A stretch of 64,000 nt of DNA, from contig CM051029.1 in NCBI GenBank assembly GCA_027627225.1, positions 16,575,956 to 16,639,955 of the forward strand. Reading direction: 5' to 3'. This document shows positions 23,401 to 59,400 of the stretch, one piece after another. Both the position numbers and the translations under genes were made by a program. Positions within the stretch are counted from its first letter, which is position 1. Every line of letters starts with the position of its first letter. The DNA comes from Congeria kusceri (Eukaryota > Mollusca > Bivalvia > Myida > Dreissenidae). The notes beneath the pieces are model-generated. The model was not told the origin of the DNA. It saw only the letters and a program-made list of their open reading frames with translations, and did not search any database.

Positions 23401-26400
23401 ACTGAAGTTAACAAACAACAAAAAATATATACACACAATACATGTACTAAAATGTCCAGAATAATGCATCCCACAGATTCATTGGGATACAATTCAACCA
23501 CAAACTGTATTAACCTGCACCCAACAAGATGTGTATGATAATGCTTGAACTAACAGAAATAATTGTAAAACAGGTGTTTATATTATCATGTTAAGTATGT
23601 TGTAAAATACTGAATATTTCAGGGCACTGGCAGGACCCAATGGAAGTCGAATATCAATGTCATACGGGAAATTATGAAAATTTAGAAAAACAAAACAATG
23701 ATCTATTTCATATAACTTTTATATGCTATTATGTATACAAGCAGTATACACAGGTTTTTCTCATGTTTTAACTTTAAAATACTTGGTTGGTTTTCATATC
23801 ATGAGACCACTTAAGACCTAAGAGTCAATATTTTGAGACTTGGGATGAAAAATATATACTCAAGAGGGGAATGGGACCCAATTTTGGCCCCAAACTGGCC
23901 CTACAAAAATAACTGCTTTGTCACTTGAATGTTGATTTTGCTTTCAGAGAATGGGGCACAGTGTTTCGAGAAGAAGATGAACAGCAGTAAGATATCTCTT
24001 TTCCTTATAGTACTCTTGATTTTTTATGATGAGCATAGTATTTAAGAAAAAAACAAGGATAAAAAAGGTACAGGGTGCAGCTTAAAAGGAGCCTGGGGGT
24101 GGGGGTGGGGGTGGGTAGGGGAATGTTGGAATAGTACTTAGAAACTTAAAACTAGGTTAAAAGATCTAGGATCAAAATAGGTACCGGGTGCTGCTTAAAG
24201 GTGCCTGGGGTTGGGGTGGGGGTGGGGAATGTTGGACTAGTACTTGGAAACTTTCAACTAGGGTCAAAAGATCTAATAGGGTGCTGCTGAAAAGGAGCAT
24301 GGGGGGAAGCCAGATCAGATCGTTGGCATTTTATGATAATTGGGTAAACCCATGGTTTTTATTCCTTTAAAGCTTCAAGTAATATTTTTGAGCAAGATCT
24401 TTTATATTGTAATGGTGATAAAAAAGTGAATGGGGGCAGCATCCAGCTATTTCACTGTGTGTCTTTCCTTTGTTAAGTTGTTTACATGCATGCTTTGAAG
24501 TTTCGTTTCTATCCTGCAGGTCAGTGCAGTTGGATGAGACAGAAAGTGTTTACATGCATGCTTTGAAGTTTTGTTTCTATCTTGCAGGTCAGTGCAGTTG
24601 GATGAGACAGAAAGTGTTTACATGCATGCTTTGAAGTTTTGTTTGTATCCTGCAGGTCAGTGCAGTTGGATGAGACAGAAAGTGTTTACATGCATGCTTT
24701 GAAGTTTTGTTTGTATCCTGCAGGTCAGTGCAGTTGGATGAGACAGAAAGTGTTTACATGCGTGCTTTGAAGTTTTGTTTGTATCCTGCAGGTCAGTGCA
24801 GTTGGATGAGACAGAAAGTGTTTACATGCATGCTTTGAAGTTTTGTTTGTATCCTGCAGGTCAGTGCAGTTGGATGAGACAGAAAGTGTTTACATGCATG
24901 CTTTGAAGTTTTGTTTGTATCCTGCAGGTCAGTGCAGTTGGTTGAGACAGAAAGTGTTTACATGCATGCTTTGAAGTTTTGTTTGTATCCTGCAGGTCAG
25001 TGCAGTTGGATGAGACAGAAAGTGTTTACATGCATGCTTTGAAGTTTTGTTTGTATCCTGCAGGTCAGTGCAGTTGGTTGAGACAGAAAGTGTTTACATG
25101 CATGCTTTGAAGTTTTGTTTGTATCCTGCAGGTCAGTGCAGTTGGTTGAAGTTTTGTTTGTATCCTGCAGGTCAGTGCAGTTGGTTGAAGTTTTGTTTCT
25201 ATCCTGCAGGTCAGTGCAGTTGGATGAGACAGAAAGTGTTCAGGACCCTAAGAAACTTTGTTGGCTGCTGTTTTTAAATGCACAAGGTATGTGTTAAACA
25301 TTTATTTACTGGATAGATACAAATGTCCAAAGTAACGTTTAAAACAGTCTATTTAATAATCAATAACGTCCTTCATTTCACTTAAATTGTTAAATCAGAC
25401 TTTAAGTGATGAACAAAAAGAAGTCAAACTTCAATTAGAAAATATTTTTAACTGAACATTTCAGCCTTGTTAGCCTTAATTAGGGGTGTCACGATATTAG
25501 AAATCTATATTGCAATGTTTGCAATATTTTTTAATTTATTAGCTCACCTGAGCACAACGTGCTCATGGTGAGCTTTTAGGATCGCCTTTTATCCGTTGTG
25601 CGTCGTCCGTCGTGTGTGAACATTTTCATTCAAACAACATCTCCTCATAAACCGCTGGGCAGATTTTCACCAAACTTCACAAGAATTATCCTTGGGTGAC
25701 CCTCTTTCAGAATTGTTCAAATCATTTCAGTCCGCTGCATATGTAGGTCACCAGAGCTAAAAATAGATTTAAAAAGTCAAAACTTTAAAAATCTTTTTCT
25801 CTGAAACTGCATTGCTGAGAGCTTTTATATTTGGTATTTGGCATCCTCTAGTGGTCCTCTACAAAGATTGTTCAAATGATGCCCCTAGGATCAAAACTTG
25901 CCACGCCCCGGGGGTCATATGGTTTATATAGACTTACATAGCACAATGACTGAAAATTTCTTTTCTGAATCTGCAGGGCCCGGAGGTTTCATATTTGGTT
26001 TGTAAGATTGCATAGTGGTCGTCTACAAAGAATGTTCAAATGATGCTCCTGGGGTCAAAACTGGCCACACCCCGGGGGGCACATTGATTATATAGACCTA
26101 AATACTAAAATTACAGCAAAAAGCTTGTCCTCTGAAACCGCAAGGCCCAGTGGTTTCATATTTGGTATGTGGCATCCTCTAGTGGTTCTCTTCAAAGATT
26201 GTTCAAATGAAATGATGCCCCTGGGGTCAAAACTGGCCACGTCCCAGGGGTCACATTGTTTATATAGACTTAAATAGCAAAATGACTGAAAATTTCTTTT
26301 CTGAATCTGCAGGGCCCGGAGGTTTCATATTTGGTTTGTAAGATTGCATAGTGGTCCTCTACAAAGATTGTTCAAATGATGCCCCTGTGGTCAAAACTGG

Positions 26401-29400
26401 CAACAACCCGGGGGTCACATTGTTTTTATAGACTTAAATAGCAAAATTACAGCAAAAAGCTTGTCCTCTGAAACCCCAAAGCCTAGTGGTTTAATATTTG
26501 GCACGTGGCATCCTCTAGTGGTCTTCTACAAAGATTGTTCAAATGATGCCCCTGGGGTCAAAACTGGCCACGCCCGGGGGTCACGTTGTTTTAATAGACT
26601 TAAATAGCAAAATGACTTTAAAAATCTTCTCCTCTGAAACCACAAGGCCCAGAGGTTTCATATTTGGTATGTAACATTGCATAGTGGTCCTCTACACAGA
26701 TTGTTCAAATGATGCCCCTGTGGTCAAAACTGGTCACGCCCCAGGGACAACATTGTTTATATAGACTTAAATAGCAAAATGACTTTACAAATCTCCTCTG
26801 AAACTGCAAGGCCCAGAGGTTTCATATTTGGTATGTAATATTGCATAGTCGTCCTCTACAAAGATTGTTCAAATGATGCCCCTGGGGTAAAACTGGCAAC
26901 ACCCTGGTGGTAACATGGTTTATATAGACTTAAATTGCTAAATGACTGTGAAAATCTTCTCCGAAACCGCAAGGCTCAGAGGTTTGGTATTTGGTTGATA
27001 ACATTGTATAGTGGTCCTCAACAAAGAGTGTTCAAATGATACCCCTGGGGTCAAAACTGGCCACGCCCCGGGGGTCACATTGTTTATATAGAATTAAATA
27101 GCAAAATAACTGCAAAAATCTCCTCTGAAACCGCGATGCCTAGTGGTTTCATATTTGGTATGTGGCATCCTCTAGTGGTCGTCTACAAAGAGTGTTCAAA
27201 TGATGCCCAGGGGTCAAAACTGGCCACGCCCTGGGGGTCACATTGTTTGTATAGACTTAAATTGCAAAACTACTTCAAGAATCTTCTCCTTTGAAACCGC
27301 AAGGCCCAGTGGTTTCATATTTGCTATGTAAGAATGCATACTGGTCTTCTACAAAGATTGTTCAAATGATGCCCCTGGGGTCAAAACTGGGATTCGTTAA
27401 ACTCAGTTGAGTGACCTAGGGCCATCGTGGCCCTCTTGTTGCGATATTTATTGCCTGTCAGTGCTGTTCACTGTATTTATTATAGTACATTCAGAGAGAT
27501 TTTTTACACGTACATGCACTTTATTTATGTATACTTGTTTTGTGCATAAACTATATATGTATTACATTCTTTGTTTGAACTGGAAACAATGTCAGGTTTG
27601 ATGTATTATTAAGCATAAACGTAAAAGAGAAAACATGTATACCAAACATAAATGGAATATTATTGGTCGCAAGTACAGTCTATATATAATGGTCGCACTA
27701 TTGACCTTCACCCCTACACAACTATCAACTTTACAAAATGATACTGTCTTTCAATTGTTTATCACTGAAAATAAGCACGTTTTATTTCAGTCAAAAGTTT
27801 TGCAATCAACGTAATAAAAATAAATAAATCCAAAACTGTAAAAAGACCAAATAAATAATGCAATATATCGGTATGGACATTCATATTGCAATATTTTATT
27901 GTAGATTAAAAGATTGCAATAAACCAATATACCAGTAAATTGTGAGACCCCTAGCCTTAATCAGGTTTGTTGCGATAAATTGGAAATGACGTTGACGTCA
28001 TCTGACGGCAACGGTAACGTCAAAGTATGACATACAAAATCAGAACATTAAATCAGAACTTTAAACTGTTATTTATTAGCATATCAACAATGCTAAGTCG
28101 AAGAAAACTATTTCTTATTCGCCCCCCTTGCAGATGACATACTGTCGCGTACTGAGGAGTTGATCCAGACCTACCACCTACTGCTGTGCTGCCTGGAATT
28201 CGTCCTGAGGGATTCTCCCGCCTTCCAGTTACAGTCTCCGTTCGGTAAAACATCAGTCTAGCTCTGTTGATGTCACGGTACCGAACTAAAGCGGGATTAA
28301 TTAGTGTGTAAGTGGCCCGGTTAGCTCACTCGATAGAGCACTCGCCCTGTCCTGGGTCCGAGTCCTGGACTGGCTGCACACTTTTCAACACCCGGCGACA
28401 TTTGGTGCCCAACCTTGGACCGTGACGTTACCTGGGTATACCCTCACAAGCCCGTGGTTAATTATATAACACCCTGAATTCGAGGACAAACGAATTCATA
28501 TTTGAGCGAGAACGGCATGTACTTGGTCACTTAAAGGGAGAAGTTGTGTGGCGGCCCAGTTAGCTCAGCCGGGTTTGAGTCCCGGACTGGCCGCACAATT
28601 TTTTCTTCCTGTGACATTAGTGTGAATGTTGGTAATACAATCCTGCGCAGTTAGTCGTGATATTCCTAAGCAGTTTAGATTCATATCTTACCCAGCAAGT
28701 CATTGAACGGTGTTTTTGTAACTCCATCAGAGATGTTATGTCTCGTTAGATTGAAAGTCAGTTGTACAATTCTGCTGCATGAAAGGTGAAAATGGCCAAA
28801 CTGAAATTCTACAATAAAACGGTTATCTTTTTGTCTATCTCAGCATGTGTTTATGCCAGAAACATTTGGTTTGCTGGATACTGTGTATTGCAAAAACACT
28901 GATCATCCGATTAAAACTGCTAACAAATACTAGCTTTATTTACTGCCGAACTTCGTGGCGATGTGGATTAAATCCGACTATTCACTGTTAAGATTTGTAG
29001 AGCTGCACGATCTTCTACATAAAACACAAAGAACTTCTTCTAGTTTCGTAGTGTCGAAAATGTAAACACCAAACTGAACTTCAAACTGTTCAAATTCCAT
29101 TCAAATTATGAACATGTGTATAAGTTATTAGCTCATAATGCATTATTTTATATGTTTATTATCTCTACATTTAACTTTTAATGTTTAGTTTAACGTGGAT
29201 CACCTTGTTAGTGCCTTGAAAAGATCGAAATATTTTGTTCAAAATGTAAACACCAAACTAAACTTCAAACTGTTCAAATTCCATTTAAATAATGAACATG
29301 TGTATAAGTTATTAGCACATAATGCATTATTTTATATGTTTGTTATCTCTACATTTAACATTTAATGTTTAGTTTAAAATGGATCACCTTGTTAGTGCCT

Positions 29401-32400: not shown

Positions 32401-35400
32401 GAATGCGGAGGTCTGGACGAGCTGTTATTCCTTCAACATGAGCCTACCCTGATGCCCAACAATTTTTCACGGTACACAATTCTTGCTTATCTCAGTACTG
32501 CAAATTTATTAATTTTTATGCCCCCACTTTAGAGGGGGGGGGGGCATATAGATTTGCACTTGTCCGCCGGTCCGTCCATCCGTCCGTTGGATTTTTGTGT
32601 CAGGCATAACTCAAGAAGTATGACTGCTAGAGTGATGAAACTTTTTAAGCATATTTATCGGCATCGAGGCTTGTGCACCTGGGTATTTTGGTGCAGTTTT
32701 TTTCCGACATCAGCGGATTTAGTACTCAATAATAGTCTCCCAACTCTTGTCATTTAGCGTGCATGTATTTATTGTATGTTAGTATAGTACTCAATAAGAG
32801 TCTCCCAACTCTTGTCATTTAGCGTAGTTATGGCCCTTTTTTAGCAAAAAATGATATTTTTGGACTTGAGTCGTGCGTAACTCAAAAAGTATTGCTGCCT
32901 GAGTTATGAAACTTTACAAACATATTCATCAGCATGTGAACTTGTGCACCTGGGTATTTTGGTGCAGTTTTTTGCGACATCAGCGGAGTTAAGGCCCTTT
33001 TTATAGCAAAAAATGACATGTTTGGACATGTGTCGCATGTAACTTAAAAAGTATTACTGCTACAGTGATGTCACTTTAAAAACGTATTAATCAGCATGTG
33101 TACTTGTGCACCTGAATATTTTGGTGCAGTTTTTTTCAGACCTGAGTGGAGTTATGACCCATTTTTAGCCAAAAAAATGAAATTTTGGACTTGTGTCGCA
33201 CATAACTCAAAACGTTTCACTGCTACAGTGATGAAACTTTATATACATATTAATCAACATTTGAGCTGGTGCACCTGGGTATTTTGGTGTAGTCTTTTCG
33301 GAACTTCAGCGGAGTTATGGCCCTTTTTTTATGAAAAAATGACATTTTTGTTACTTATGTCGCGTGTAACTCAAGAAGTATTATTGCTACAGTGATGGGA
33401 CTTTATAAACATATTAATCAGTGTGTGAACTTGTTCACCTGGGTATTTTGGTGCATGTTTGTTTGCCATCAGTGGAGTTATGACCCTTTTTTAGCAAAAA
33501 ATGACATTTTTTGGATTTGTGTCGCGTGTTACTTAAAAAGTTTAACTGCTCGACTGATGAAACTTTATAAACATATTCATCAGCATGTGCATGTGAATGT
33601 GTGCACCTGGGTATTTTGGTGCATTTTTTTGTGACAACCAGCGGAATGTGGGGGCATACGTGTCAAACGCACACATGTCTAGTTTTTAAAAAGAACTGAG
33701 TTGCATCTCTTATTTCATCGATGAAAATAATTATTTTCAAATTGCTGTTACAACACAATTATTGTATTCTCCAAATCTTGCTCTCAAGGCTATTAAATGT
33801 TTTCACTTCTTTTTGACAGTGTGCAATCCGGTATCACCAACAACGGCCTTGATACCCCGGTGACGCCAGTGCGGGCGGCCATGAACACTATACAGCAGTT
33901 GAAAAACCTGATCTCGGCCAACACAGACCATTTACAGCTACTCAGAGAACATTTCCAAGTATGTTTGTGTGAGTGTTTCTGTGTGCATTGTTCACTTGTT
34001 TATATGTTGAGAGTAGATAGCCAACACAGACCATCTACAGCTTCACCGGGAACATTTCCTGATGTGTGTCAGAGGCCAAGATCAGGCGTGTACACGTGTA
34101 AATTATGTGTACACTATTGGACGATACGCTGTGAATAATGACATTTGGGAGTACATATACACAGAGAGAATAAAGTTTGGGTGTACATTTATGCACAATG
34201 TCCTCCATTAATACATAACATCACATTTTAGTGATGATAAGCTATATAGAAGATAGAAGTGTTCACAGGTCTGCACTACAGTATGTGCAATAAAAACATA
34301 AACGTGTAAAATGAATTCTTACTTGTAACATTATTGTATTCAAAGGTTGTTGCTACATTACTAGTATTATGGATAATATTAATAATAAGCCATTGTTTAT
34401 TCTCCATCGTTGATACTGTACTCTTTAGGTTGGTGTAAATAAACCACCAATTATCCTACATAGAGTGTATATTTACCCCCATAAATTCAAGAGAGTGTTC
34501 ACTTACTCCCAAATTTTCAGACGTAAGCGTACATTTACCCCCAGTAAATATCTCAACCACTACAGACCATCTATAACTACTCAGGGAACATTTCCTGGTA
34601 TGTGTGTGTGTGAGTGTCTATGCATTGCTTACATGTTTATATGAGTGTGGGGAGTAAATATCTCAACCACTACAGACCATCTACAAGTCCACAGAGAGCA
34701 TTTCCAGCTGTGTGTTTGTGTGCATTGCTTACTTATTTATATGAGTGTTAGTGGGGTTGGATGGATATCTTAGCCAATGCAGACCATCTACAACTCCACA
34801 GAGAACATTTCCAGGTTAGTGTATGAGTGTGTGGCCAGTGTTATGTGAGTGTGTATGTTTGGGGGAGGAGGGGGGGGTAGATACCTCAACCATGAACCAA
34901 CTACAATTCCTCAGGCAACATTTCCAGGTTAGTGTATGAGTGTGTGGCCAGTGTTATATGAGTATGTGTGTGTGTGGGGTGGAGGCGGGGGGGTAGATAC
35001 CTCAACCATGAACCAACTACAATTCCTCAGAGAACATTTCCAGGTTAGTGTATGAGTGTGTGGCCAGTGTTATATGAGTATGTGCGGCGGGGGGGAGGGG
35101 GGGGGTAGATACCTCAACCATGAACCAACTACAATTCCTCAGGGAACATTTCCGGGCTCGTTTGTTGTTTATTCAGCATTCAGATATCTCGGGCATAAGA
35201 ATTTACCTCTGTTTAGCAGATTTCCTTGTTTTATTGAAAATTTTAATCAGAAAAGTGTTTTTAATGTTTTGTCTGATTTGTGAAGATTTCATGGTGGTGG
35301 GGTATGTGTGTGTGTGTGTGTGGGGGGGTGGGTGGGGTGTCAGCTGTTCTACAAAATTTCCATTATGGTAATGGCTCATAATTGGACAGCCCCCTCTGGC

Positions 35401-38400
35401 TGAAACATTTCTGTAGCCAAATTACCTTACTATGTTGAAAATGTGCTAATTATGACAAATTTTGAGGTTTTGATGAATAAACACTCGTTCTCATTTTTTG
35501 GGCTGAAAAGCATAACATAAATATGAAATTTATGACTTCTCATTTCCATACAAATTTATGTTAAATATGAAAATGGAACTTATCTGTGTTGAGGTTTAAG
35601 TGATGTCCATATTGTGCAAGTTTTATTTTTTGCTGTAGTACGCTGTCAACATATGCATGAGTTTTACTTATGTATTTTACGTGACAGTGATACCAGCCAA
35701 ATGACAGATACAGGTGATACCAGCCAAATGACAGATACAGATTATGAACATACATAAGAGATGCACTTTTTTGTCTTTATTAAATTATCAACACAGCAAT
35801 TTCTATTATTTAACTTCTTGAAAACACTTAACTGATAACATTGTCGAACAATGGACACTTAAAATGGAAAATTGGGCTGAAGAAACAGTAATTTCTTGCA
35901 TTATTGTCCTTTTGTTTTTTTCATATATTCTCACACCTAAAATTAACCGTAAATACATAGTCAAGTATAATAGTAGTGCTCACAAACCCTTTATAAACCC
36001 TAAAGCAGAAATAATAGAGCTCAACTGATGTAAAACCATTTTACAGGAATGTGCTTTTGTCACGTTAAATTCATTAAACAATTAACACATTGTACAAGTA
36101 CGTACTTCAGCAGAAAATGGGTTAATCTATCGTAGAAGTGGGGAAAATAACTTGCAAACTTAAAAATTTGTAGAAAAATAAAGATTGTAATTGACATAGA
36201 ACCATTAAAATGCTAAATCAATACCAATTGTCATGTAAAATTCAATGAACTCAACTGTTACATTTAACGGACATCACATGTGGTAAAACTATTGCAAACT
36301 CTTTTGAAATGACATCCTTGTTTTCTGAATAACTAGATTTACCAATATAAATGTGATAGATGATGGATAATTGTAGAGTATTTGACATTTTAATGACATA
36401 ACTCAGTTCATATTTGTCACGTAAAATTCAACTAACTTTTTCAAGATTTCAGCTATTTTAGCCTTGTCTTTGTCAATATACGTTTGTATTATTGGACAAA
36501 CAAGATTATTTAAACATATTATTAGTGAAATTAAAACAAACAAAACCAATAAGTTGAACGTTTTATGTTTGAATTTTACGTGACATTTTATGAATTTTAC
36601 TAATTTTACGTGACATTTTAATATATGCTCTATATGTGCACCAGACCCTGATAATCAACCATGCGTCATAACAGTACTTATCTTTAATTATTTCTTAGCA
36701 TAAGTGCAATTAAAACACATTCTTTCTATAAAGTTATCACGTTATATTTGACAAAACAAAAACAAGGGGAGTTCAAATAAGTAACCTAACACAATAGATC
36801 ATGTGTCATTGATTTCAACTAAATGGCCCTAGAAAAACATTCAATGACGTCATAAATATCACGGCATAAACCGAAAATACCGAACGAATTATTTGGTCAC
36901 TGTCTACACCGCGGGAAGCGCACGTTTCATAAAATTGTCACGTAAGTATTCAGTCACGTAAACTTCAAGTTTACCTTTCCAATAACCAAAATCTGTAATA
37001 TTTTTGATAACTCGTCACTCTATTTGTCATAATATACATTTCTCAGTAAGAGATTACATATAACACTGTCAATTTTATAGAGAAAAGTGTGGCAAGAGAC
37101 AAACAGTCGTCACGTAAAGCTTCACAGAAAAAATTCCCCCATATGAGCTTAGACCATTAATGGCTTAAATCTTTTGTATGATAAGGTTGATAAAAACTTT
37201 GTTTTTTCAAAAGAAGTTGTGTAAAGTCTTATCAATTGAAATGTTAAACCATGATTTTCTTCAAAACAATTTTATGATAGCACAGCAAATAAGTTAGTGT
37301 CACGTAAACTTCAAGCATCTTGTGACACGAATAAAATATTAATTTTTTAGCTCACCTGAGCACAACGTGCTCATGGTGAGCTTATGTGATCGCCTTTTGT
37401 CCGTCGTGCGTCAACATTTCATATAATCGACATCTCCTAAACCGCTTGGCAGAGTGTCACAAAACTTCACAGGAATGATCCTTGGGTGACCCTCTTTCAA
37501 AGTTGTTCAAATCGTTTCGGTCCGCTACATATGTAGGTCACCAGAGCTAAAAATAGATTTCAAAAGTGAAAACTTTAAAATTCTTCTCTGAAACCACAAG
37601 GCTTGGAGCTGTCATATTTGATATCTGACATCCTCTAGTGGTCCTCTACAAAGATTGTTCAAATTATGCCCCGGGGGTCACATTGTTGATATAGACTTGT
37701 ATAGCAAAATAACTTTAAAAATCGTCTTCTCTGAAACCGCAAGGCCTGGAGGTTTCATATTTGGTATGTAACATTGTAAAGTGGCCCTCTACAAAGATTG
37801 TTCAAATGATGCCCCTGGGGTCAAAACTGGCCATACCCCGGGGGTCACATGGTTTATATAGACTTGAATAGCAAAATGACTTTCAAAATGTTATCCTCTG
37901 AAACTGCAAGGCCCAGAGGTTTCATATTTGGTATATAACATTGTAAAGTGGTCCTCTACAAAGATTGTTCAAATGATGCCCCTGGGGTCAAAACTGGCCA
38001 CACCCCGGGGGTCACATGGTTTATATAGACTTGAATAGCAAAATGACTTTAAAAATCTTCTCCTCTGAAACCGCAAGGCCCAGAGGTTTCATATTTGGTA
38101 TTTAACATTTTGTAGTGGTCCTCTATAAAGATTGTTGAAATGATGCCCCTGGGGTCACAGCTGGGCACAACCCGGGGCTCACATGGTTTATATAGACGTA
38201 AATGGCAAAATGATTAAAAATTCTTCTCTGAAACCACAAGGCCCAGAGGTTTCATATTTGGTTAAAACATAATCGAGACCTCGATTGGGATTGCATATGG
38301 GATGGGTGGGGTCAAGGTCACTGTTACTAAAAATAGAAAAACGGTTTCCACTCAGTAACTTTAGAACGCATTGAGATATTTTAATGAAACTTAATACATA

Positions 38401-41400: not shown

Positions 41401-44400
41401 AGTTTGTTCAAGATTGTTGAAATTATGCCCCTGGGATAAATATAAGCCACGCCTTGGAGATGCATATTCCAGTTGGGTAGCAAGGTCTCAGGTGAGCGTC
41501 CTAGGGCCCTCTTGTTTTCTGATAAAGCATACCAGGGTGCTTTCACTTCTGACACTCCTTACTTAATAAGGCAGTGGAGCGATACAGGCACTTTTGTGCC
41601 TCTTGTTTAAAAAATATATAATATATATCAGTATTAAATGTATCATTCTAAATCACTTAATTCATCCATGAATTCATCCATTTATTGAGATTTACGGTTT
41701 CTATAATGATAAAGATCTGTATTTAAAAGACTTGTGTAACTTAACTTAATCAATTACTTTGTTTACCCACCTGGTCATTGTGGCAGATTTATTATGGAAA
41801 TTTATAATAATCTTTGAGAATAATAAATTATTCAAACATTGATAGTGGTTTAATGATATAAAACATTAAACTTAAAGCAATCTGATATTTCATATTATTT
41901 GTACACGGGGTCTGAACTCCCTGCCTATGTACTCTGTGACAATATGGTGTAATATAACCCTCTGGATCACGTGGTAGTTTACATAGTGACTTCGTTTACT
42001 GACGGTAAACAGCTGGAATCATATGAGTCTTAACCTCGAAGTTTGTTCGAAATTATCTTCGTTTCAATATTAATTTAACTTCTTGCGTCGCTTTACAATG
42101 GACAATAGCTAGATATCTATGTTTTGTGGAATACGTTAATATATTGATCAGAGATACGTACGTCATTCACTCGATTTAAAGTAAAAAAGGTTGGTTTGTG
42201 ATAACGAGCAATCTACAAAATGGCGACATTTTCTCCGCAGTCTTCAATAGATAAGGGTTCTGATGCAGTTAAGGAGTACAGTTGTACTACTGGTGAAGAG
42301 AAGAATCTTGAGAAATGTGCTGACTTCTATTGTGTGGCATGTCTAAGGTTTTTTTGCGGAAAATGTATTCAACCTCATGATCAGGCGTTTACGAAACGTA
42401 CCACATATGGAAAAGGGGACACGAAGAAGTGGCCAGTATCCGAGGAAGTTGAGGACTTTCTTCAGAAATGTGATGTACACAAAGATGAAAAATTGAAAAT
42501 GTTCTGTGAAGACCACAATAAGCTGTGCTGCACTGACTGTGCTTTCCTTAATCACAGGTACCGTGGACATGCACTAACTGTGCTTTCCTTAATCACAGGT
42601 ACCGTAGATATGCACTAACTGTGCTTTCCTTAATCACAGGTACCGTAGACATGCACTAACTGTGCTTTTCTTAATTACAGTACCGTAGACATGCACTAAC
42701 TGTGCTTTCCTTAATCACAGGTACCGTAGATATGCACTGACTGTGCTTTCCTTAATCACAGGTACCGTAGACATGCACAAACTGTGCTTTCCTTAATCAC
42801 AGGTACTGTAGACATGCACTAACTGTGCTTTCCTTAATCACAGGTACCGTATGCTGCACTAACTGTGCTTTCTTAATCACAGGAACCGTATGCTGCACTA
42901 ACTGTGCTTTCCTTAATCACAGGTACCGTAAACATGCACTAACTGTGCTTTACTTAATCACAGGTACCGTATGATGCACTAACTGTGCTTTCCTTAATCA
43001 CAGGTACCGTAGACATGTTTACCATAGACATGCACTAACTGTGCTTTCCTTAATCACAGGTACCGTAGACATGTTTACCGTAGACAGGCACTAACTGTGC
43101 TTTCCTTAATCACAGGTACCGTAGACATGTTTTCATTCAGTTATTATGGTAAATATGTGACACAATTGAGGCACGTAAAACAATATTTTTGTAATTATTG
43201 ACACGCTCTTAAAACGAAACTTACAAATTTGGTTGATTTAAAAGTCTTGGTCAATTGAAAGGCTGTATATTTTATAATAACTTGAGTGTTACTGAGATTT
43301 TAGGTTTACCTCTGAAATCAGTATTGAATGAACACAGATAATTTGCTGAAGAATCAAATTCAGGACAACTACATCAAAATGGTGTCTTGAGAAATGTATG
43401 TTAACCGAAATGACACATTTGAGTTTTAAACTTCCTGTTATTAGCTAGATACTAATGGTTAGCAGGTAAACTGAATACCTGGGTGTTAGATAACATCAAT
43501 GAATATGTTTAACGAGTTTAAGGTTTACTTAAATTTCACCCTGCATTAAAACCAGTTACACATTTTATGAATGCCCTTTCTTCACTATTTCCCAAACACA
43601 CAAATCTTTCATTCAAAGTAATAATACATGTTCCTTAAATAAGTTTCATAAAAGATTCAGTAGAAGAATATATTATCTTCGAAAATTTTAAGAGCATCCA
43701 ACTATTTTCTGTTTGTATGTAAATCACATAGTTTTATATCAAGCCGTGCATCTTGTCGTGTTATTGATAGCATTTTACTTAAATGTTCTTAATCTTTAAG
43801 TATAATATAATGTTTATGTTATTCTTTCAGACAGTGCACAAAAGTTACACTTATTTCGGAGTCAGTGAAAAAACATTCAACAGACCTCCAGCACCTGTCA
43901 GTTAAACTTCAAACTATCCTAGAAGAAATAAAGAAGCTTCAAACTAATTGGGAGATAAACATTCATTCTTTGCAGAGCTCATACGATAAACAATTACACA
44001 AGGTACGAGAAACCCGCAGGAAAATAAATGCAGCTTTTGATGAAATAGAAAAAAACACCCTGAAGCAAATGAAAGAAACACTGAATAGCCTTCAAGCTTC
44101 CCTCAAGAATGATGTGGAAAACTGTACGAGGCTTCGAGATGAATTAAAACGACTCCGCGAAGTCATACAGGACATCAGTGATAAGAGCAAGGAGGAACTC
44201 TCCTTTATTGCCAGCAAAAAATGCCTGGATAAGATACAACAGTCAGAAGCATATCTGAAGGAGAAATCTGTTCAAGTTAAACATTCACTTTCATTCCAGG
44301 CTAACGGTGACATTGAGCAGTACTTGTCCAAACTGTCAGGTCTGGGGAGGATTGTACACAGTAATCAAACATTGACAGTACAGGGAAATCCAGACCAGGC

Positions 44401-47400: not shown

Positions 47401-50400
47401 TTGACAATCATATATAATATTATGTGGTGTGATCTTGTCAGTTAATTGTTTGCTTTTAAAATAATTGCTGAGTGCCATTGAATTACATGATTGTATTTTT
47501 GTTAATAATTGTTTGCTGTAAAAAAGGGTTCATGTAAAATGTGTTGTTGTTATTTATAAAATGATCAGATCTTTATAAATAATAAACCTGTAGTGTTTAT
47601 GCATATAGGTGGATTTCCTTTGCAAGTACAAGGATAGACCGCATTATAGGTTGGATGGTTTGGAACACAGTGTCTCTCTGTCATTTGTTGAATTAGCCAG
47701 TGATTTTTACAGATTTAAATCTTTGGCTAAAGAAATGTATAGGTTGGCAACAACTGTTAGTTCATTAACCCATATAAAATACCCACACTGAGTACGATTT
47801 CAACATAGTACAGTAAATATTGCTAAAAAAACAACATCGTACTGTACATATGGCTAAAGTAGTTTAGTAAATATGGTTTAAGTACAACACTTAACAGGAA
47901 ATATGGCTACAGAAAAACATTGTAAAGTACAAATGGCTAAAGAACAACACAGTACAGGAAATATGTCTAAAGAACAACAAACAACATGGTACCGAAAATA
48001 CAGGTTAAAAACACTGTACAATTAATAAATCTAAAGAACAACACAGTACAGTACATTTGGTTTAAATTCAACAAAGTACAGTAAATATAGGTAAAGTACA
48101 GCACAGTACAGTAAATATAGATAAAGAATATCACAGTACAGTCAATATGGCTAAAGTTTAAAACAGTACAGTAAATGTGGCTAAAGTTCAACACAGTACA
48201 TTAAATATGGCTAAAGAACAACACAGTATAGTAAATATGTCTAAAGAACAACAAACAACATAGTATCGAAAATATGGCTTTAGAACAACACTGTACAGTT
48301 GATATGGTTAAAAACCAACAAAGAACTTATTACAGTAAATATGGCTAAAGAACAACACAGTATGGTAAATATGGCTAAAGAACAACAAAGAACATATTAC
48401 TGTAAATATGGCAAAGGAACAACACAGTGTAGCAAAAATGGCTCAAGAACAACAAAGAAGATAATACACTAATATGGCTAAAGAACAACACAGTACAGTC
48501 ATAGATAAAGAACAACACAGTACAGTACTTATGGCTAAAGACAACAAAGTACATGAAATATATTAAAAGGACAACACAGAACATATTAGAACATTATATA
48601 GCTACGGGTAATGAACAATATACTACAGTACTATACAGTAGAGTGAATATGGCTGTAGAACATCAAAGAACATATTAGAACATATATAGCTACGGGTAAT
48701 GAACAATATACTACAGTACTATACAATAGAGTAAATATGGCTGTAGAACATCAAAGAACATATTAGAACATATATAGCTACGGGTAATGAACAATATACT
48801 ACAGTACTATACAATAGAGTAAATATGGCTGTAGAACATCAAAGAACATATTAGAACATATATAGCTACGGGTAATGAACAATATACTACAGTACTGTAC
48901 AGTAGAGTAAATATGGCTGAAGAACATCAAAGAACATATTAGAACATATATAGCTACGGGTAATGAACAGTATACTACAGTACTGTACAGTAAAGTAAAT
49001 ATGGCTGAAGAACATATTAGAACATATATAGCTACGGGTAATGAACAATATATTACAGTACTGTACAGTAGAGTAAATATGGCTTTAGAACATCAAAGAA
49101 CATATTAAAACATATATAGCTACGGGTAATGAACAATATACTACAGTACTGTACAGTAGAGTAAATATGGCTGTAGAACATCAAAGAACATTTGAGAACA
49201 TATATAGCTACCGGTAATGAACAATATACTAGAGTACTATTCAGCAGAGTGAATATGGCTCAAGAACATCAAAGAACATATTAGAACATAAATAGCTACT
49301 GGTAATGAACAGTATACTACAGTACTGTACAATAGAGTAAATATGGCTAAAGAACAGCATAGTAAAGGACATTTGGCTAAATTACATCACAGAAGAGTAA
49401 ATATGGCTAAAGAACAACACAGTACTATTAGTTACACTGTTCGTAACTGATGGTGTATGGGATAACACCCTCAGTGGCTTTATACCATACGAGAGCGCAG
49501 CTCGAGTATGGTTTGAAGCCACTGAGGGTGTATATCCCATACACCATCAGTTACGAACAGTGTAACGAATATATCTCACCGACTACCTTTCATTGGTTTC
49601 TTTTAATTTGATCTAGGAACGCACATGTAGGTCCTTTAATAATAAATAATTATTTATAAAAGCTGCGTTTTTTAAATCTTATTTAATTTTTTAATGGTCG
49701 TCCATGGTTCGAATTAGTAAAGATATTAAAAATGTTACAATATTCAATTGTTATTTTATTCAAGAGTGTCCCTTTAACAAACTGGAACTGACTGTAAGCA
49801 ATGCGTCTTCCAAGAAACAGACAATACCAGTAGACCTACGTCATTTAAGGTGCGTCATCTTTAGTAAACAAATGGAGTGTCAAGCAGTAAGTCATCTTTA
49901 GTAAACAAATGGAGTGTCAAGCAGTACAGTATACTGCAGTACAAATGGAGTGTCAAGCAGTACAGTAATACTGCAGTACAAATGGAGTGTCAAGCAGTAC
50001 AGTAATACTGCAGTACAAATGGAGTGTCAAGCAGTACAGTAATACTGCAGTACACATTGGAAATGGAGTGTCAAGCAGTACAGTAATACTGCAGTACACA
50101 TTGGAAATGGAGTGTCAAGCAGTACAGTAATACTGCAGTACAAATGGAGTGTGAAGCAGTACAGTAATACTGCAGTACACATTGGAAATGGAGTGTCAAG
50201 CAGTACAGTAATACTGCAGTACACATTGGAAATTGAAGACATTTTAACCAGACTAATCATAGACAATCAATGAAATGAGCGCGTGAACTGTGGATATTAT
50301 ATGCTGATGTGGAAATGGATTTATTAAATCGGATTTATTATAATATTACAAGAACAAAGCAGTATTTTGTTTTTGTCAGTCACACTGTCGAGGTTGATAA

Positions 50401-53400
50401 ACAGCAAAAACACCGAGATAAGATTACTTAATTTTTATAGCTGGTGCACGTTAGACAGTTCTTTCACAGTATTAAGATACATTTGTTTGGAATCTGTATT
50501 TAAACATAAAAAATATGCCATGCAACGTCAAGTTGATATAAAATTACTAAACAAAACAACAGATTATCCAGCAGTTGCCATTTTGTTTTACTTTCTATGG
50601 AGTATTGAAAATTAGCCATGGTGTATGGTAAATACACCACGGTCACGTGACCGCTCTTAGCCAATCGGATCACGTCATTTATGTAGGAGGTGAGATATAG
50701 TTTATATATGGCTATCAAAAGAACATTGTAGTTAAGTAAATATGGCTAAAGAACAACATTGTGCAGTACATGCGGCTTTAAGAACAGCTTATAACAGTAA
50801 ATATGGCTAAAGACCAACACAGTACAGAAAATAACATTCATTCCATATATTCACAGAACTGTGCCAGCAATCCCGAGAGGTCTATCACAGAACGGGTGTC
50901 ACAGATGAAGCTAAAGTTCCTCTCCCACTACCTCGAGACGGCGGGGACAGGACAGGGCGCGGTGGCAGAGCAGCGCTACAGGCAGGCCTCCAACCTGTAC
51001 TATCGGGTCATGAAGAGGCTGCTGGACATAGTGAGTAGTCATGGCTGAACAATCATAGGCTGGACATAGTGAGTAGTTATGGCTGAACAATCATAGGGTG
51101 GACATAGTGAGTAGTTATGGCTGAACAATCATAGGCTGGACATAGTGAGTAGTTATGGCTCAACAATCATATGCTGGACATAGTGAGTAGTTATGGCTGA
51201 ACAATCATGGGTTGGACATAGTGAGTAGTTATGGCTGAACAATCATAGGCTGGACATAATGAGTAGTTATGGCTGAACAATCATAGGCTGGACATAGTGA
51301 GTAGTCATGGCTGAACAATCATGGGTTGGACATAATGAGTAGTTATGGCTGAACAATCATAGGCTGGTCATAGTGAGTAGTCATGGCTGAACAATCATAG
51401 GCTGGACATAATGAGTAGTTATGGCTGAACAATCATAGGCTGGACATAGTGAGTAGTTATGGCTGAACAATCATGGGTTGGACATAATGAGTAGTTATGG
51501 CTGAACAATCATAGGCTGGACATAGTGAGTAGTCATGGCTGAACAATCATAGGCTGGACATAGTGAGTAGTCATGGATAAACAATCATAGGCTGGACATA
51601 GTGAGTAGTCATGGCTGAACAATCATGGGCTGGACATAGTGAGTAGTCATGGCTAAACAATCATGGGCTGGACATAGTGAGTAGTCATGGCTGAACAATC
51701 ATAGGCTGGACATAGTGATTAGTCATGGCTGAACAATCATGGGCTGGACATAGTGAGTAGTCATGGCTGAACAATCATAGGCTGGACATAGTGAGTAGTT
51801 ATGGCTGAACAATCATGCGCTGGACATAGTGAGTAGTTATGGCTGAACAATCATGGGCTGGACATAGTGAGTAGTTATGGCTGAACAATCATGGGGTGGA
51901 CATAGTGAGTAGTCAAGGCTGAACAATCATGGGCTGGACATAGTGAGTAGTTATGGCTGGAAAATCATGGGCTGGACATAGTCAGTAGTTATGGCTGAAC
52001 AATCATGGGCTGAACATAGTTAGTAGTTATCGCTGAACAATCATGGGCTGGACATAGTCAGTAGTTGTGGCTGAATAATCAGGGGCTGGACATAGTGAGT
52101 AGTAATGGCTGAACAATCATGGGCTGGACATAGTCAGTAGTTATGGCTGAACAATCATGGGCTGGACATAGTCAGTAGTCATGGATGAACAATCATGGGC
52201 TGGACATAGTCAGTAATTATGGCTGAACAATCATGGGCTGGACATAGTCAGTAGTTATGGCTGAACAATCATGGGCTGGACATAGTGAGTAGTTATGGCT
52301 GAACAATCATGGGCTGGACATAGTGAGTAGTTATGGCTGAACAATCATTGGCTGGACATAGTGAGTAGTTATGGCTGAACAATCATACGGTGGACATAGT
52401 GAGTAGTTATGGCTGAACAATCATGGGCTGGACATAGTGAGTAGTTATGGCTGAACAATCATAGGGTGGACATAGCGAGTAGTTATGGCAGAACAATCAT
52501 AGGGCTGGACATAGTGAGTAGTTATGGCTGAACAATCATAGGGTGGACATAGTGAGTAGTTATGGATGAACAATCATAGGCTGGACATAGTGAGTAGTTA
52601 TGGCTGAACAATCATAGGCTGGACATAGTGAGTAGTCATGGCTGAACAATCATAGGCTGGACATAGTGAGTAGTTATGGCTGAACAATCATGGGCTGGAC
52701 ATAGTGAGTAGTCATGGCTGAACAATCATGGGCTGGACATAGCGAATCATAGGGTGGACATAGCGAGTAGTTATGGCAGAACAATCATAGGGCTGGACAT
52801 AGTGAGTAGTTATGGCTGAACAATCATAGGCTGGACATAGTGAGTAGTTATTGCTGAACAATCATGGGCTGGACATAGTGAGTAGTCATGGCTGAACAAT
52901 CATGGGCTGGACAAAGCGAGTAGTTATGGCAAAACAATCATAGGGTGGACATAGCGAGTAGTTATGGCAGAACAATCATAGGGCTGTACATAGCGAGTAG
53001 TTATGGCTGAACAATCATGGGCTGGACATAGTGAGTAGTTATGGCTGAACAATCATAGGGTGGACATAGCGAGTAGTTATGGCAGAACAATCATAGGGCT
53101 GGACATAGTGAGTAGTTATGGCTGAACAATCATAGGGTGGACATAGTGAGTAGTTATGGCTGAACAATCATCGGCTGGACATAGTGAGTAGTTATGGCTG
53201 AACAATCATAGGCGTAACATAGTGAGTAGTTATGGCTGAACAATCATATGCTGGACATAGTGAGTAGTTATGGCTGAACAATCATAGACTGGACATAGTG
53301 AGTAGTTATGGCTGAACAATCATGGGCTGGACATAGTGAGTAGTTATGGCTGAACAATCATAGGCTGGACATAGTGAGTAGTTGTGGCTGAACAATCATA

Positions 53401-56400
53401 TGCTGGACATAGTGAGTAGTTATGGCAGAACAATCATAGGGCTGGACATAGTGAGTAGTTATGGCTGAACAATCATGGGCTGGACATAGTGAGTAGTTAT
53501 GGCTGAACAATCATAGGGTGGACATAGCGAGTAGTTATGGCAGAACAATCATAGGGCTGGACATAGTGAGTAGTTATGGCTGAACAATCATAGGGTGGAC
53601 ATAGTGAGTAGTTATGGCTGAACAATCATAGGCTGGACATAGTGAGTAGTTATGGCTGAACAATCATAGGCTGGACATAGTGAGTAGTTATGGCTGAACA
53701 ATCATATGCTGGACATAGTGAGTAGTTATGGCTGAACAATCATAGACTGGACATAGTGAGTAGTTATGGCTGAACAATCATGGGCTGGACATAGTGAGTT
53801 TTTATGGCTGAACAATCATGGGCTGGACATAGTCAGTAGTCATGGCTGAACAATCATGGGCTGGACATAGTGAGTAGTTATGGCTGAACAATCATAGGCT
53901 GGACATAGTGAGTAGATATGGCTGAACAGTCATGGGCTGGACATAGTCAGTAGTCATGGCTGAACAATCATAGGCTGGACATAGTCAGTAGTTATGGCTG
54001 AACAATCACGGGCTGGACATAGTGAGTAGTTATGGCTGAACAATCATAGGCTGGACATAGTGAGTAGTTATGGGTGAACAATCATGGGCTGGACATACAT
54101 AGTAGTTATGGCTGAACAATCATGGACTGGACATACATAGTGAGTTGTCATGGCTGAACAATCATAGGGTGGACATAGTGAGTAGTTATGGCTGAAAAAT
54201 CATAGGCTGGACATAGTGAGTAGTCATGGCTGAACAATCATAGGGTGGACATAGTGAGTAGTCATGGCTAAACAATCATAGGCTGGACATAGTGACTAGT
54301 TATGGCTGAACAATCATAGGCTGGACATAGTGAGTAGCTATGGCTGAACAATCATAGGCTGGACATAGTGAGTAGTTATTGCTGAACAATCATAGGCTGG
54401 ACATAGTGAGTAGCTATGGCTGAACAATCATAGGCTGGACATAGTGAGTAGTCATGGCTGAACAATCATAGGCTGGACATAGTGAGTAGTTATTGCTGAA
54501 CAATCATAGGCTGGACATAGTGAGTAGTTATTGCTGAACAATCATAGGCTGGACATAGTGAGTAGTTATGGCTGAACAATCATGGGCTGGATATATTGAG
54601 TAGTTATGGCTGAACAATCATAGGGTGGACATAGTGAGTAGTCATGGCTGAACAATCATAGGCTGGACATAGTGAGTAGTTATTGCTGAACAATCATAGG
54701 CTGGACATAGTGAGTAGTCATGGCTGAACAATCATTGGCTGGACATAGTGAGTAGTTATGGCTGAACAATCATGGGCTGGATATATTGAGTAGTTATGGC
54801 TGAACAATCATATGCTGGACATAGTGAGTAGTCATGGCTGAACAATCATAGGCTGGACATAGTGAGTAGTTATGGCTGAACAATCATCGGCTGGACATAG
54901 TGAGTAGTTATGGCTTAACAATCATAGGCTGGACATAGTGAGTAGTCATGGCTGAACAATCATAGGCTGGACATAGTGAGTAGTTATGGCTGAACAATCA
55001 TAGGCTGGACATAGTGAGTAGTTATGGCTGAACAATCATAGGCTGGACATAGTGAGTAGTTATGGCTGAACAATCATAGGCTGGACATAATGAGTAGTTA
55101 TTGCTGAACAATCATAGACTGGACATAGTGAGTAGTTATGGCTGAACAATCATAGGCTGGACATAGTGAGTAGTCATGGCTGAACAATCATAGGCTGGAC
55201 ATAGTGAGTAGTTATGGCTGAACAATCAGGGGCTGGTATTAATAGAGCTGCGTATTGAAACACTTCAGTAAAATTCTTAAAATCTTAAAATTCCTTAAGG
55301 CTTTGATGGGTTCATTTAAAGTTTATTTTATATTGAATGGTTTTAATCCGGTAAAGAATCACTAATTGTTTCCTTTATACCATATTTCAAATATAAAATA
55401 TAGATTTTCACATAAAAAAGTTTGTTTGAACTGTTCACTTAAATATGTTTTAATTTAAGAGCTTTGTGGATATATGGCCCCTGGGCAGGTATTCACAAAG
55501 CTCCTAAGAGAATCTTAACTTGTAGTTGTACTCAAGTGAAAATTTCAGATAAAATTTTATCTGGTAATTACATTGTGTTAATTAATGTAAAGAACTTTGC
55601 ATAGTTCACCATTATTGTGATAGAACTAATCGTTCTGAAGTTGTCAAATGGAAAACAAGTGCCTCAAAACGATGTAAGGCAGATAAATGTGTAAGTTGCT
55701 GTTTGCTAACATAAAAAGCAGGATTTTGCATCAGTTGAAAACGCCGTTAGGCAAACTTGGAATGGCTAAAAAAATTTAACATATTAATATTTCTTGATTG
55801 ACAATTTGATGAATTTGGGGATTTCTTGAGTCACAGTTACCTTGATGTTTGGTTTGATGGTTCATTAGGAGAATTGATTAGCTAAATACACAGATTTTTT
55901 TTAAAGTTTGTTAATTAATTAACTAGTTACACACTGACATAGCAATAAATTTAAAACAAACTGGTAAAAACAACAACTTAAACAAACTGATACAAATATA
56001 TGTCACCTCAACTTAAAACACTAATGCAAACGCTTTCATCAATTACTACTAGTATACATTACTAATTAACTGTGTATATATACAAATTAGGCCTACATGT
56101 TGGTATACCCCTGCCTATTTTACATTGTTACTACATGCATACCTTTCCTTTTCTGATATTCTTTCAGGAGAAGGAAAGGGTAGCATAGAAAGTTTCCAGT
56201 TGTCTCCATAACAACGACGTCTTTCATCACTCACTGCTTGTTAGTACATGCATACCTCATATTTTCTACTATTCTTTGAGGAGAGGGAACAGGTAAGCAC
56301 AGAAGGATTTAAGCAGTCTCCTCAACAACGACGTATTTCATCGCTCACTGCTTGTTAGTTCATGTATACCTTTCTCTTTCTACTATTCTTTCAGGAGAGG

Positions 56401-59400
56401 GAAAGGTTAGCACAGAAAGACTTCAGCAGTCTACTCAACAACGACGTCTTTCATCGCTCACTGCTGGCGTGTTCTACGGAGATCGTCCTCACAACATACA
56501 ATGTCTCTTGTTAGTATATAGTTTAATAGTATGTGTTTACTGCAATTTTTGGTATATAATATGCTTGTGCTTGGGTCCAAAAAATAATTTATGTGTTTCT
56601 GGCAACCCGACTACCTAGCGAAAAAAACACCGATCCTAAGGTTTCTAGCAAAATTTTTAGTTACAATTGTTTTCTGTGAAATCCATATTTTTGTCAGATT
56701 TTAGATAATTTTCAATCATTTTTTTTTATCAAAACGTGTCTTTAAAAAAAAGGTAAACAACTCCATTGGATGTGGTGTGACTGGGAGATCATGTTTTCAA
56801 TCCCTACTCAGGAAACATTCCAGTTTTTCGAAAAACAAGTACATGTTCAACACAGAAAAAGTGTTTAAATTCCTTTTTGATTTCATACAAAGATGCAATA
56901 TTTTCAGGGTCCATGACTCACTCGGTTCTCAACAGCAGCGACAGCAAGTTCCTGTTCCCGTGGGTACTCGACGTGTTCGAACTCTACGCCTTCGACTTCT
57001 ACAAAGTGCTGGAGAGCTATCTGAAAGCAGAGCCAAATCTGACCAGGGATATAATAAAGGTTAGTTTCCTGAGGAACTGTTGTATTCATACACGATTGTA
57101 CATGCTTTTGTGTGTATATAGAAAATTAGTAGGTTAGTGTCTTTGTGTACTTGAATTTATCTGACGAGTTGTGGAAAGGTTTACAAGGCGAGGCTTGTTT
57201 ATGACGTCACTAATTTTCATGGAAAAAAAAGTCCTTCAAAAGAATAAACATGAAAAGGTCTGATATTCCCTAGTAGCCATATTAGCATTTCAAAATGACA
57301 AATACTACTTTGGCATAGAGAAAATGACTTGCATTACTTGTGTATAAAATTGTTTTGTTCATAGAAATGAAAACAGCAATTTTCATTCATAATTTTAAAA
57401 ACTTATTTGCCTCATGAAAATATGTATTTGAGTACTTCTAAATTGGACTTTTGTTTATATTTTTGTTGTTTGTTTTTCAGCATTTGACGTCTATAGAGAA
57501 CAGAATACTTGACAGTGTTGCATGGCAGTCAGTAAGTAAATAAGGACTGTTGGGATGATGATGGATGATGATGATGATTATCATTATTATTACAGTAGAT
57601 TCCACTTAATTGAATATCAGATAATTAAACATATTTGGCTTAATTGAATGAAGATTGAAAACACCAAAGCATTTGCATTCATTCCCATTGTAAAAACACT
57701 GCCTAATCTGATAGAAAATATGGTATCCTCCAGTTAATTGAATAGCCAATTATCAGTTGTAGATGTATAGTCCGCTCGATAATCTCATAATCTCCGAAGA
57801 TACGTATCTTATCGCTAGTTTTGACAGCCACGCTTCAATGACCGCCTTTGTTATCATTACACGCCACGCATGTATGCAGCGTCTGTTGAATGTCACGTGA
57901 CTAATAGGTGTACTCTGCGGGCCAAGTATAGTGCATACACTGGAGTCTCCAGTTACAAAACAGCGTGTGTCTGCATTGTCTGTAAATCTGATTGACCAAG
58001 GATTCCTTATTTTAAGCCATTTTTTAGTTAAGAGTTTGCCCCGTTTACTATTGTCAAGTATTTTTAAGCCCCATTTTATTGCAGACTTTACATAATATGG
58101 AGAGGACACAGTTATCCATTTTTTAATGTGTACTATACATTGTTTTAACCTTCATGGGTAGTAAGTTTCTTAATTTTATGGCAAGTATTTGGATCATATT
58201 GTTAATAATGATTAAGTTGCCATTATTTCTTTGTGGTATTACATATTTAGATTTTCTGCAGTTATTCTTAATGTAGAATTTTGTATATTTTTAACAAATA
58301 ACTGTTTCATAGAAGTGGTTATCCACATTTAAACTTTTAAAGTGTTGAACTACATGTTTTAAGTATCCCTATCTATGTAGAGCATGTAAACCTGTGCGCC
58401 CCCCTGGTCCCAGTATCTCAAAATACCATTCAAGTACTGCCGGCCAAAATTCCCCTCCCCCACCGGTGCTATCCCTTCTTTTAATAATCACGAACGAGAC
58501 AAAATCTTCCTTTCATGTGCTCCCCACTGTGATTTTCTTTTATTTGTATATATCTATACAGTCTAGACAGTTGCTTTTATTAGTTATATCTTGTTTTATT
58601 TGTGTTATTTTAAAAGGCCCTAAAAAGTAAGCCGTTTGATAGTGCCGGAAGGGTGTAATATATGTTTTATTCTTAATTTTACTGTATATTGGATTCTCAT
58701 CCTGTTATGTTGATCATTTTCTTAAATTGTCACCCTGGGGTAGGCTACATTCCACAAAATTGCCCAACAATTATGCATAAAACTCAAAAGACAGGGTATC
58801 AGGTTGGAGCAACAAGTTATGTTCCTGTCTACAGGAGTTCAGCATTAGTTAAAAGCATGTCATGCAATTGTAACATCCATCATTAAAATATATATACCCA
58901 TTATAAAGAAAATATTACATACCAACCAACATATACTTGCAGATGCGAGTTACTTTAACAATCTCACATTAATTTACTTGCTATTAATTGAATAGTCCAT
59001 CTTCATTGTATATTCAACTATCACTGCTTGAACCTTATAATAAATAAAGCTAAGAAAGCATATTTTAACCTTTTTTCTCTATCTCCATATATAAAGGCAT
59101 GCAAATTATAAAGATGTTGTAAAACAATGCTGAACCACTTAGAGATCTGGATATAATTAACATTGTTTACAGTCGTTATTATAATATCATTACACGTGCA
59201 TTTGCACATCGGTTTTAAATTTAATATTACATATTGTATATGTTATGTTTTACCCGAGTTTGACCCAGATCTTTAAGTAAGAAAGACTCCAACAACACTG
59301 TTGCAGCATTTGCTGCATAACAGGTTTTGAAAAATGATGATACACATAAAATTATGTGTTTCCACCATTTAACTGTTATTCCAGTTGGGCTATTTTCTCC

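Follow-up and report, generated by a model that had tools for sequence, protein, structure and literature searches.

Tandem arrays sit on five splice junctions

Tandem arrays placed on splice junctions are a real and recurrent feature of the 64,000-nucleotide stretch of the bivalve Congeria kusceri analyzed here (contig CM051029.1, 16575956-16639955, in a 1.55-Gb genome; henceforth the window), in which exons of the tumour-suppressor gene RB1 are found together with two TRIM-like genes (A and B). Five of the 31 modelled junctions (23 in RB1, 8 in the TRIM-like genes) are inside such arrays, four in RB1 and one in a TRIM-like gene: the acceptor of RB1 exon e2, the e8 donor, the donor of exon 1 of TRIM-like gene B (TRIM-B), the e9 donor and the e10 acceptor (Table 1). 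We think it probable that these five exon edges are the outermost units of arrays that grew by repeated tandem duplication of an exon edge along with its splice site, and that this growth was tolerated since the outermost junction still splices.

The original prediction for this stretch had proposed five arrays whose repeat unit contains an exon edge and its splice site, with the coding copy first or last. All five are present, and in each of them the outermost unit is the coding copy. Within 1.5 kb of each of the five junctions there is a shifted copy that matches it at 26 or more of 32 bases; the best figure for any other junction is 20. With 10-71 bp of coding exon included, the arrays fall outside the ordinary intronic minisatellites, which are wholly intronic; their minisatellite units span an exon-intron boundary, as do those of the boundary internal tandem repeats (boundary ITRs) considered below. 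The proposal that the arrays are mutually independent, and not one repeat family, was likewise supported.

Array 1 carries TGCAG/GTCAGT (the slash marks the splice point) in 12 of 12 window copies, and array 3 carries ATCACAG/GT in 12 copies out of about 13-15 in all. In array 4, GT is kept in 94 of the 110 inner units and lost in 16, seven of which have changed to GC. Array 2 has eight recognizable copies and one 536-bp gap; the call by Tandem Repeats Finder (TRF) starts only at 34783 and was extended by eye, a step that the other four arrays do not need. Its start had been placed at 34019, which proved too late, because the exon edge itself makes up the first unit. Array 5 had been described as holding acceptor plus donor: it does include the acceptor, along with 71 bp of exon, but the real e10 donor at 56509 is outside, although the unit join CTTGTTAGTA resembles it.

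Table 1. Junction-spanning arrays and the exons concerned (positions are those of the window)
Feature	Position	Strand	Repeat unit	Junction and coding exon included	Coding copy	Basis or remark
Array 1	24479..25240	+	68 bp, 39-bp variant near end	e2 acceptor 25209/25210, 31 bp	last	
Array 2	~33920..35160	+	degenerate, ~103-116 bp	e8 donor 33958/33959, ~39 bp	first	
Array 3	42529..43132	+	41 bp	TRIM-B exon 1 donor 42557/42558, 29 bp	first	
Array 4	51021..55236	+	38 bp, ~111 units	e9 donor 51030/51031, 10 bp	first	
Array 5	56125..56465	+	113 bp, 3 units	e10 acceptor 56394/56395, 71 bp	last	
RB1 exon e2	25210..25286	+				gene model
RB1 exon e8	33820..33958	+				gene model
RB1 exon e9	50857..51030	+				gene model
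RB1 exon e10	56395..56509	+				gene model
TRIM-like gene B exon 1 (B-box)	42205..42557	+				gene model, domain match
TRIM-like gene A exon 1, paralogue	21331..21701	-				single copy at corresponding donor, unexpanded

The arrays predate the copies of the RB1 locus

The RB1 locus, nested TRIM-like pair included, occurs three times on the contig: in the window, in a second copy about 130 kb downstream (about 16701000-16780999) and in a third 798 kb upstream (about 15772000-15851999). The RB1 exons found in the other two loci are 97-100% identical to those of the window (e1 is outside the second-locus stretch or was not found in it), and the three loci are either paralogues or uncollapsed haplotypes. 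All five arrays are present in all three loci, with the coding copy retained beside each; therefore the arrays predate the locus copies. Core counts in the window, second and third locus are 12, 12 and 33 for array 1, 13, 19 and 20 for array 3, 110, 73 and 21 for array 4, and 3, 3 and 2 for array 5, with array 2 invariant at 8. Unit number thus varies between the loci, as it does between recent paralogues for boundary ITRs, in four of the five arrays and not in array 2. Old as the arrays are, all but array 2 changed in unit number after the locus was copied, while the exon edges were kept. The donor of TRIM-like gene A (TRIM-A) has one copy where TRIM-B has about 13-15, and the intron past the array is alignable. 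That each array has kept its coding copy in each of the three loci fits a likely tolerance through the outermost site. A separate 54-bp array, 1.35 kb long in the window (11813-13165), opens the second-locus stretch with a length of about 11 kb.

In a small sample, arrays span junctions in excess of random placement

Within the window, TRF finds 40 arrays, which we tested against the 31 junctions under a null in which all 40 are set down as single units at random across the collapsed window. Between 1.6 and 2.0 junction hits are expected with all arrays, and 0.4-0.9 when the 140-170 bp satellites or few-copy arrays are left out. The Poisson probability of five or more hits ranges from 0.052 to 0.0001 across array sets, and the permutation probability from 0.0145 to 0 in 20,000. 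This window-only excess is modest, hinges on which arrays count and is suggestive, not decisive. Proximity to exons, considered as a substitute for spanning, was rejected: five of the other 35 window arrays are within 150 bp of an exon, with 4.7 expected.

Other genes were sampled by homology, blind to repeats, giving 82 Myosin_head and 125 kinesin matches; the profile search scores best candidates only (65 of 268 for myosin, 122 of 242 for kinesin). For myosin, 64 of the 82 matches were taken, as 60 regions consisting of the match plus 300-350 bp, and the 18 omitted include some that tie a taken match's score; for kinesin, 28 of the 125 were taken by rank, with duplicates skipped and 200 bp added. 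An array was counted when TRF gave a unit of at least 20 bp in at least 2.9 copies, and as spanning when it included at least 8 bp of exon. Match ends served as exon edges, and regions flagged near an edge were the only ones read base by base.

The myosin regions contain nine arrays in 52,950 bases. Seven of these strictly span an edge, at donors (L030, L038, L055 and L078) or acceptors (L039, L070 and L075), where uniform placement predicts 1.2 (P = 1.6e-5); a longer stretch at L078 places the coding copy first among its units. The remaining two are L063, which begins right at a donor, takes in about 1 bp of exon and is classed as abutting, and L049, which is off the edge. Counting one array per gene cluster leaves five of seven spanning (P = 7e-4). 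For myosin and kinesin together, 13 arrays lie near exons and 8 of them are strictly spanning, versus 1.5 expected (P = 1.7e-5); adding the RB1 region 3' of the window gives 8 of 15 (P = 8.8e-5, with two RB1 placement probabilities set by eye). As a control, 10 random kb held one array of at least 2.9 copies. The junction excess of arrays in other genes is thus supported, in a small sample, and with it the earlier suggestion that junctions are preferred places for tandem duplication.

Two-copy duplications over an edge (L051, L057, L086, L109 and the RB1 e17 acceptor, which is not a strict array) were kept out of these counts. Arrays whose unit was shorter than 20 bp, or whose copy number was below 2.9, were dropped before counting (among them L066, L072, L083 and one L126 row), as were two-copy duplications off edges (L029, L041, L043, L062, L068, L069, L087, L110 and L112); L058 was too weak to count. 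In L086 (301-444), a myosin-like exon has an in-frame stop along with its two-copy acceptor duplication, and is possibly a pseudogene.

Inner splice sites are no better conserved than their surroundings

Retention of the splice dinucleotide in inner units was compared with the average dinucleotide of the same units, in 13 rows that represent 11 distinct arrays (the e9 array enters from three loci; arrays 2 and 5, L063 and L124 are excluded). The dinucleotide is kept in 246 of 291 inner units, with 259.3 predicted, and 9 of the 13 rows are below their own expectation. Inner splice dinucleotides are therefore no better kept than other sites and give no sign of selection for extra copies: they decay as other parts of the unit do, and the inner copies are not being preserved for splicing. 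The original prediction had left open whether such duplications are tolerated or selected; tolerance fits the coding copies kept in three loci, and selection finds no counterpart in these unconserved dinucleotides.

Use of an inner site is predicted to lead into a stop in arrays 4 and 5 (both upstream units in the latter), in the later units of array 3 and, in array 1, at the two acceptors read far upstream. Inner-site use is not always excluded, however, which speaks against a general safeguard and against our interpretation: splicing to either of the two acceptors of array 1 that lie closest upstream would lengthen the frame by 13 or 26 codons and meet no stop, nor is there a stop in the first unit of array 2.

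Arrays 1 and 3 have a further property. The sequence AGGTCAGT is exact in 56 of 57 array 1 copies across the three loci, in an array that is near-uniform anyway (98% identity). AG/GT, the criterion of the AGGT model (Rogers 1989, as cited in PMC4974935), is found in nearly all units of arrays 1 and 3 and in three copies of array 2. Since the units of array 1, and most of those of array 3, run from GT to AG in register, each is a candidate mini-intron, and transcripts that use an inner site might be trimmed by recursive splicing. Compared with the recursive-site motif YAG/GT, array 1 (CAG/GTCAGT) matches the donor consensus at eight of nine positions in 12 of 12 window copies, and array 3 (CAG/GTACCG) at only six of nine. 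The AGGT model also calls for a new intron position in coding sequence; by exon joins compared with Mya and Ostrea we found none, and the arrays are in existing introns.

Gene models and neighbouring repeats

RB1 was modelled with 12 exons in the window (e1-e4 and e7-e14) that have AG and GT borders, agreeing phases and 461 stop-free codons. Its pocket-A part matches RB_A of Pfam (E = 1.7e-51) and solved RB structures (E = 3.5e-46), and the top match among the 26 proteins listed is an RB-like protein of Mya arenaria, which covers 100% of the query at 60% identity. The e1-e2 and e8-e9 joins align with the Mya protein without a gap, as does e9-e10 with an Ostrea protein. An extra exon between e4 and e7 was ruled out because the Mya protein joins the two directly. 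Two Mya arenaria RB-like models, P0001 and P0002, both lack the end of e9 and the whole of e10, exons whose edges carry arrays here, and this is possibly a gene-model failure at an array. The TRIM-like genes, which match B-box and NHL, are paralogues located in two RB1 introns in opposite orientation (A at 9664-21701 on the minus strand, B at 42205-46808 on the plus strand).

Arrays upstream of e9 (47866-50233) share a TATGGCT..GAACAA core with array 4 across the exon; the likeness of array 4 to the array at 47866-49424 has a pair P of 0.003, yet five of the 380 pairs score higher by z. A dispersed satellite-like family of repeats, about 160-167 bp long and sharing the core AAACCGCAAGGCCCAGAGGTTTCATATTTGGTAT, occurs at 25782-27390 and 37669-38270.

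Discussion

How might exon edges come to lie in arrays without loss of the gene? A tandem duplication with one end in the exon and the other in the intron would leave one intact exon at the outside, and therefore the coding sequence should be unharmed if that copy is used. The arrays then expand and contract independently of one another, as the differing unit counts of the three loci show for four of the five. The junction excess is most simply explained if ordinary tandem duplications begin, or persist, at junctions unusually often, in preference to selection for extra sites. For arrays 1 and 3, recursive splicing could be a further means of removing an inner site used by mistake.

A related class of repeats is already in print, although the original prediction knew of no named one. 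In human segmental-duplication genes, internal tandem repeats at exon-intron boundaries are reported with 27 intron modifications (De Grassi and Ciccarelli 2009, PMC2812944); like the arrays here, these are TRF minisatellites on the boundary whose number varies between recent paralogues. They differ in that the C. kusceri arrays reach about 110 units, affect several junctions of one gene, leave the coding sequence apparently unchanged and span junctions in excess, and in that the human work rests on transcripts whereas ours are known from genomic sequence alone. A potato RdRp gene is described as having gained an intron by tandem duplication across an intron-exon boundary (PMC4974935). The segment duplicated there, an intron 3' end with the 5' end of the next exon, recalls arrays 1 and 3 with their in-register AG/GT, but a single duplication created a new intron with an inserted exonic piece, whereas we see many units and no exon added to the model. 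Novel Drosophila introns reported to arise via tandem duplication of AG/GY proto-splice sites share the duplicated site, but begin in coding sequence and not, as here, on existing junctions (PMC2891723). Recursive splice sites (YAG/GT; reviewed in PMC5126111) likewise join acceptor and donor with no exon between, as the units of arrays 1 and 3 do; here, however, dozens are found in tandem, and in sequence only. In the literature searched, which mostly excluded subscription papers, we found no report of an array excess on junctions. What is new here is the recurrence, the copy number and the junction excess.

Several observations weigh against the reading that junctions are favoured, and some of them are also what would be expected if a minisatellite-rich genome simply had some arrays on junctions by chance, in a window picked for having several. 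This window was indeed picked by a reader for its arrays, which make up 36% of it, and under the loosest rule the all-array null gives a Poisson P of 0.05. Near copies are found at 213 of 573 intron points, as against 5 of 31 junctions and 4 of 187 exon-interior points; raw coverage thus shows no junction enrichment, because it counts the length of array growth and not array origins. Best-candidate scoring in the profile search could favour loci with repeated exon edges. Two pairs of myosin arrays are within about 10 and 22 kb, each pair likely in one gene. Kinesins alone give one spanning array in four, which is not significant (P = 0.27), and that array, L124, rests on a choice between two acceptors. 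Around 17 RB1 edges beyond the window carry no strictly spanning array: the arrays there have 35-bp units starting at the e16 donor (abutting, with about 1 bp of exon) or begin about 55 bp past the e18 donor. Chance nevertheless strikes us as unlikely, since it has to accommodate the 8 of 13 strictly spanning arrays outside the window, the single array in the random 10 kb, and a P of at most 0.0026 in the window once the 140-170 bp satellites are removed.

Extra donors or acceptors might instead have been kept by selection as a means of tuning splicing, for instance as poison sites that lower the amount of gene product. The stops predicted after inner-site use in arrays 4 and 5 and far upstream in array 1 would suit this, as would the recurrence of arrays in RB1, a gene where dosage matters. 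We nevertheless regard such selection as improbable, given the unconserved inner dinucleotides (with the e9 array making up three of the 13 rows), a unit count that ranges between 21 and 110 among near-identical loci, and inner sites that meet no stop. Collapse or inflation of the arrays by the assembler is the least probable account, and we give it very little weight: it is true that the loci, with RB1 exons 97-100% identical, have different unit counts and could include uncollapsed haplotypes, but the units differ among themselves by substitutions and indels, all five arrays recur in three separate loci, and similar arrays are found at unrelated myosin exons.

Beyond outermost-site tolerance, we tentatively entertain, with more doubt than belief, a broader proposal: that junctions are a genome-wide birthplace of arrays through a process tied to the junction, and that AG/GT-phased arrays act as self-erasing ladders whose units are removable mini-introns, letting essential genes bear dozens of splice-site copies. 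Self-erasure as a general property was rejected, because in-register AG/GT is carried by nearly every unit only in arrays 1 and 3; array 2 has three AG/GT copies, and, as a further point against, no unit of arrays 4 and 5 has it in register.

If junctions are preferred starting points for duplication, the boundaries on which genes most depend would also rank among the least stable of their sites, and intron gain, alternative splice sites and errors in gene models would, in repeat-rich genomes, have a common source. With donor copy numbers of about 21, 73 and 110, the RB1 loci offer a natural test of how the spliceosome chooses among near-identical sites.

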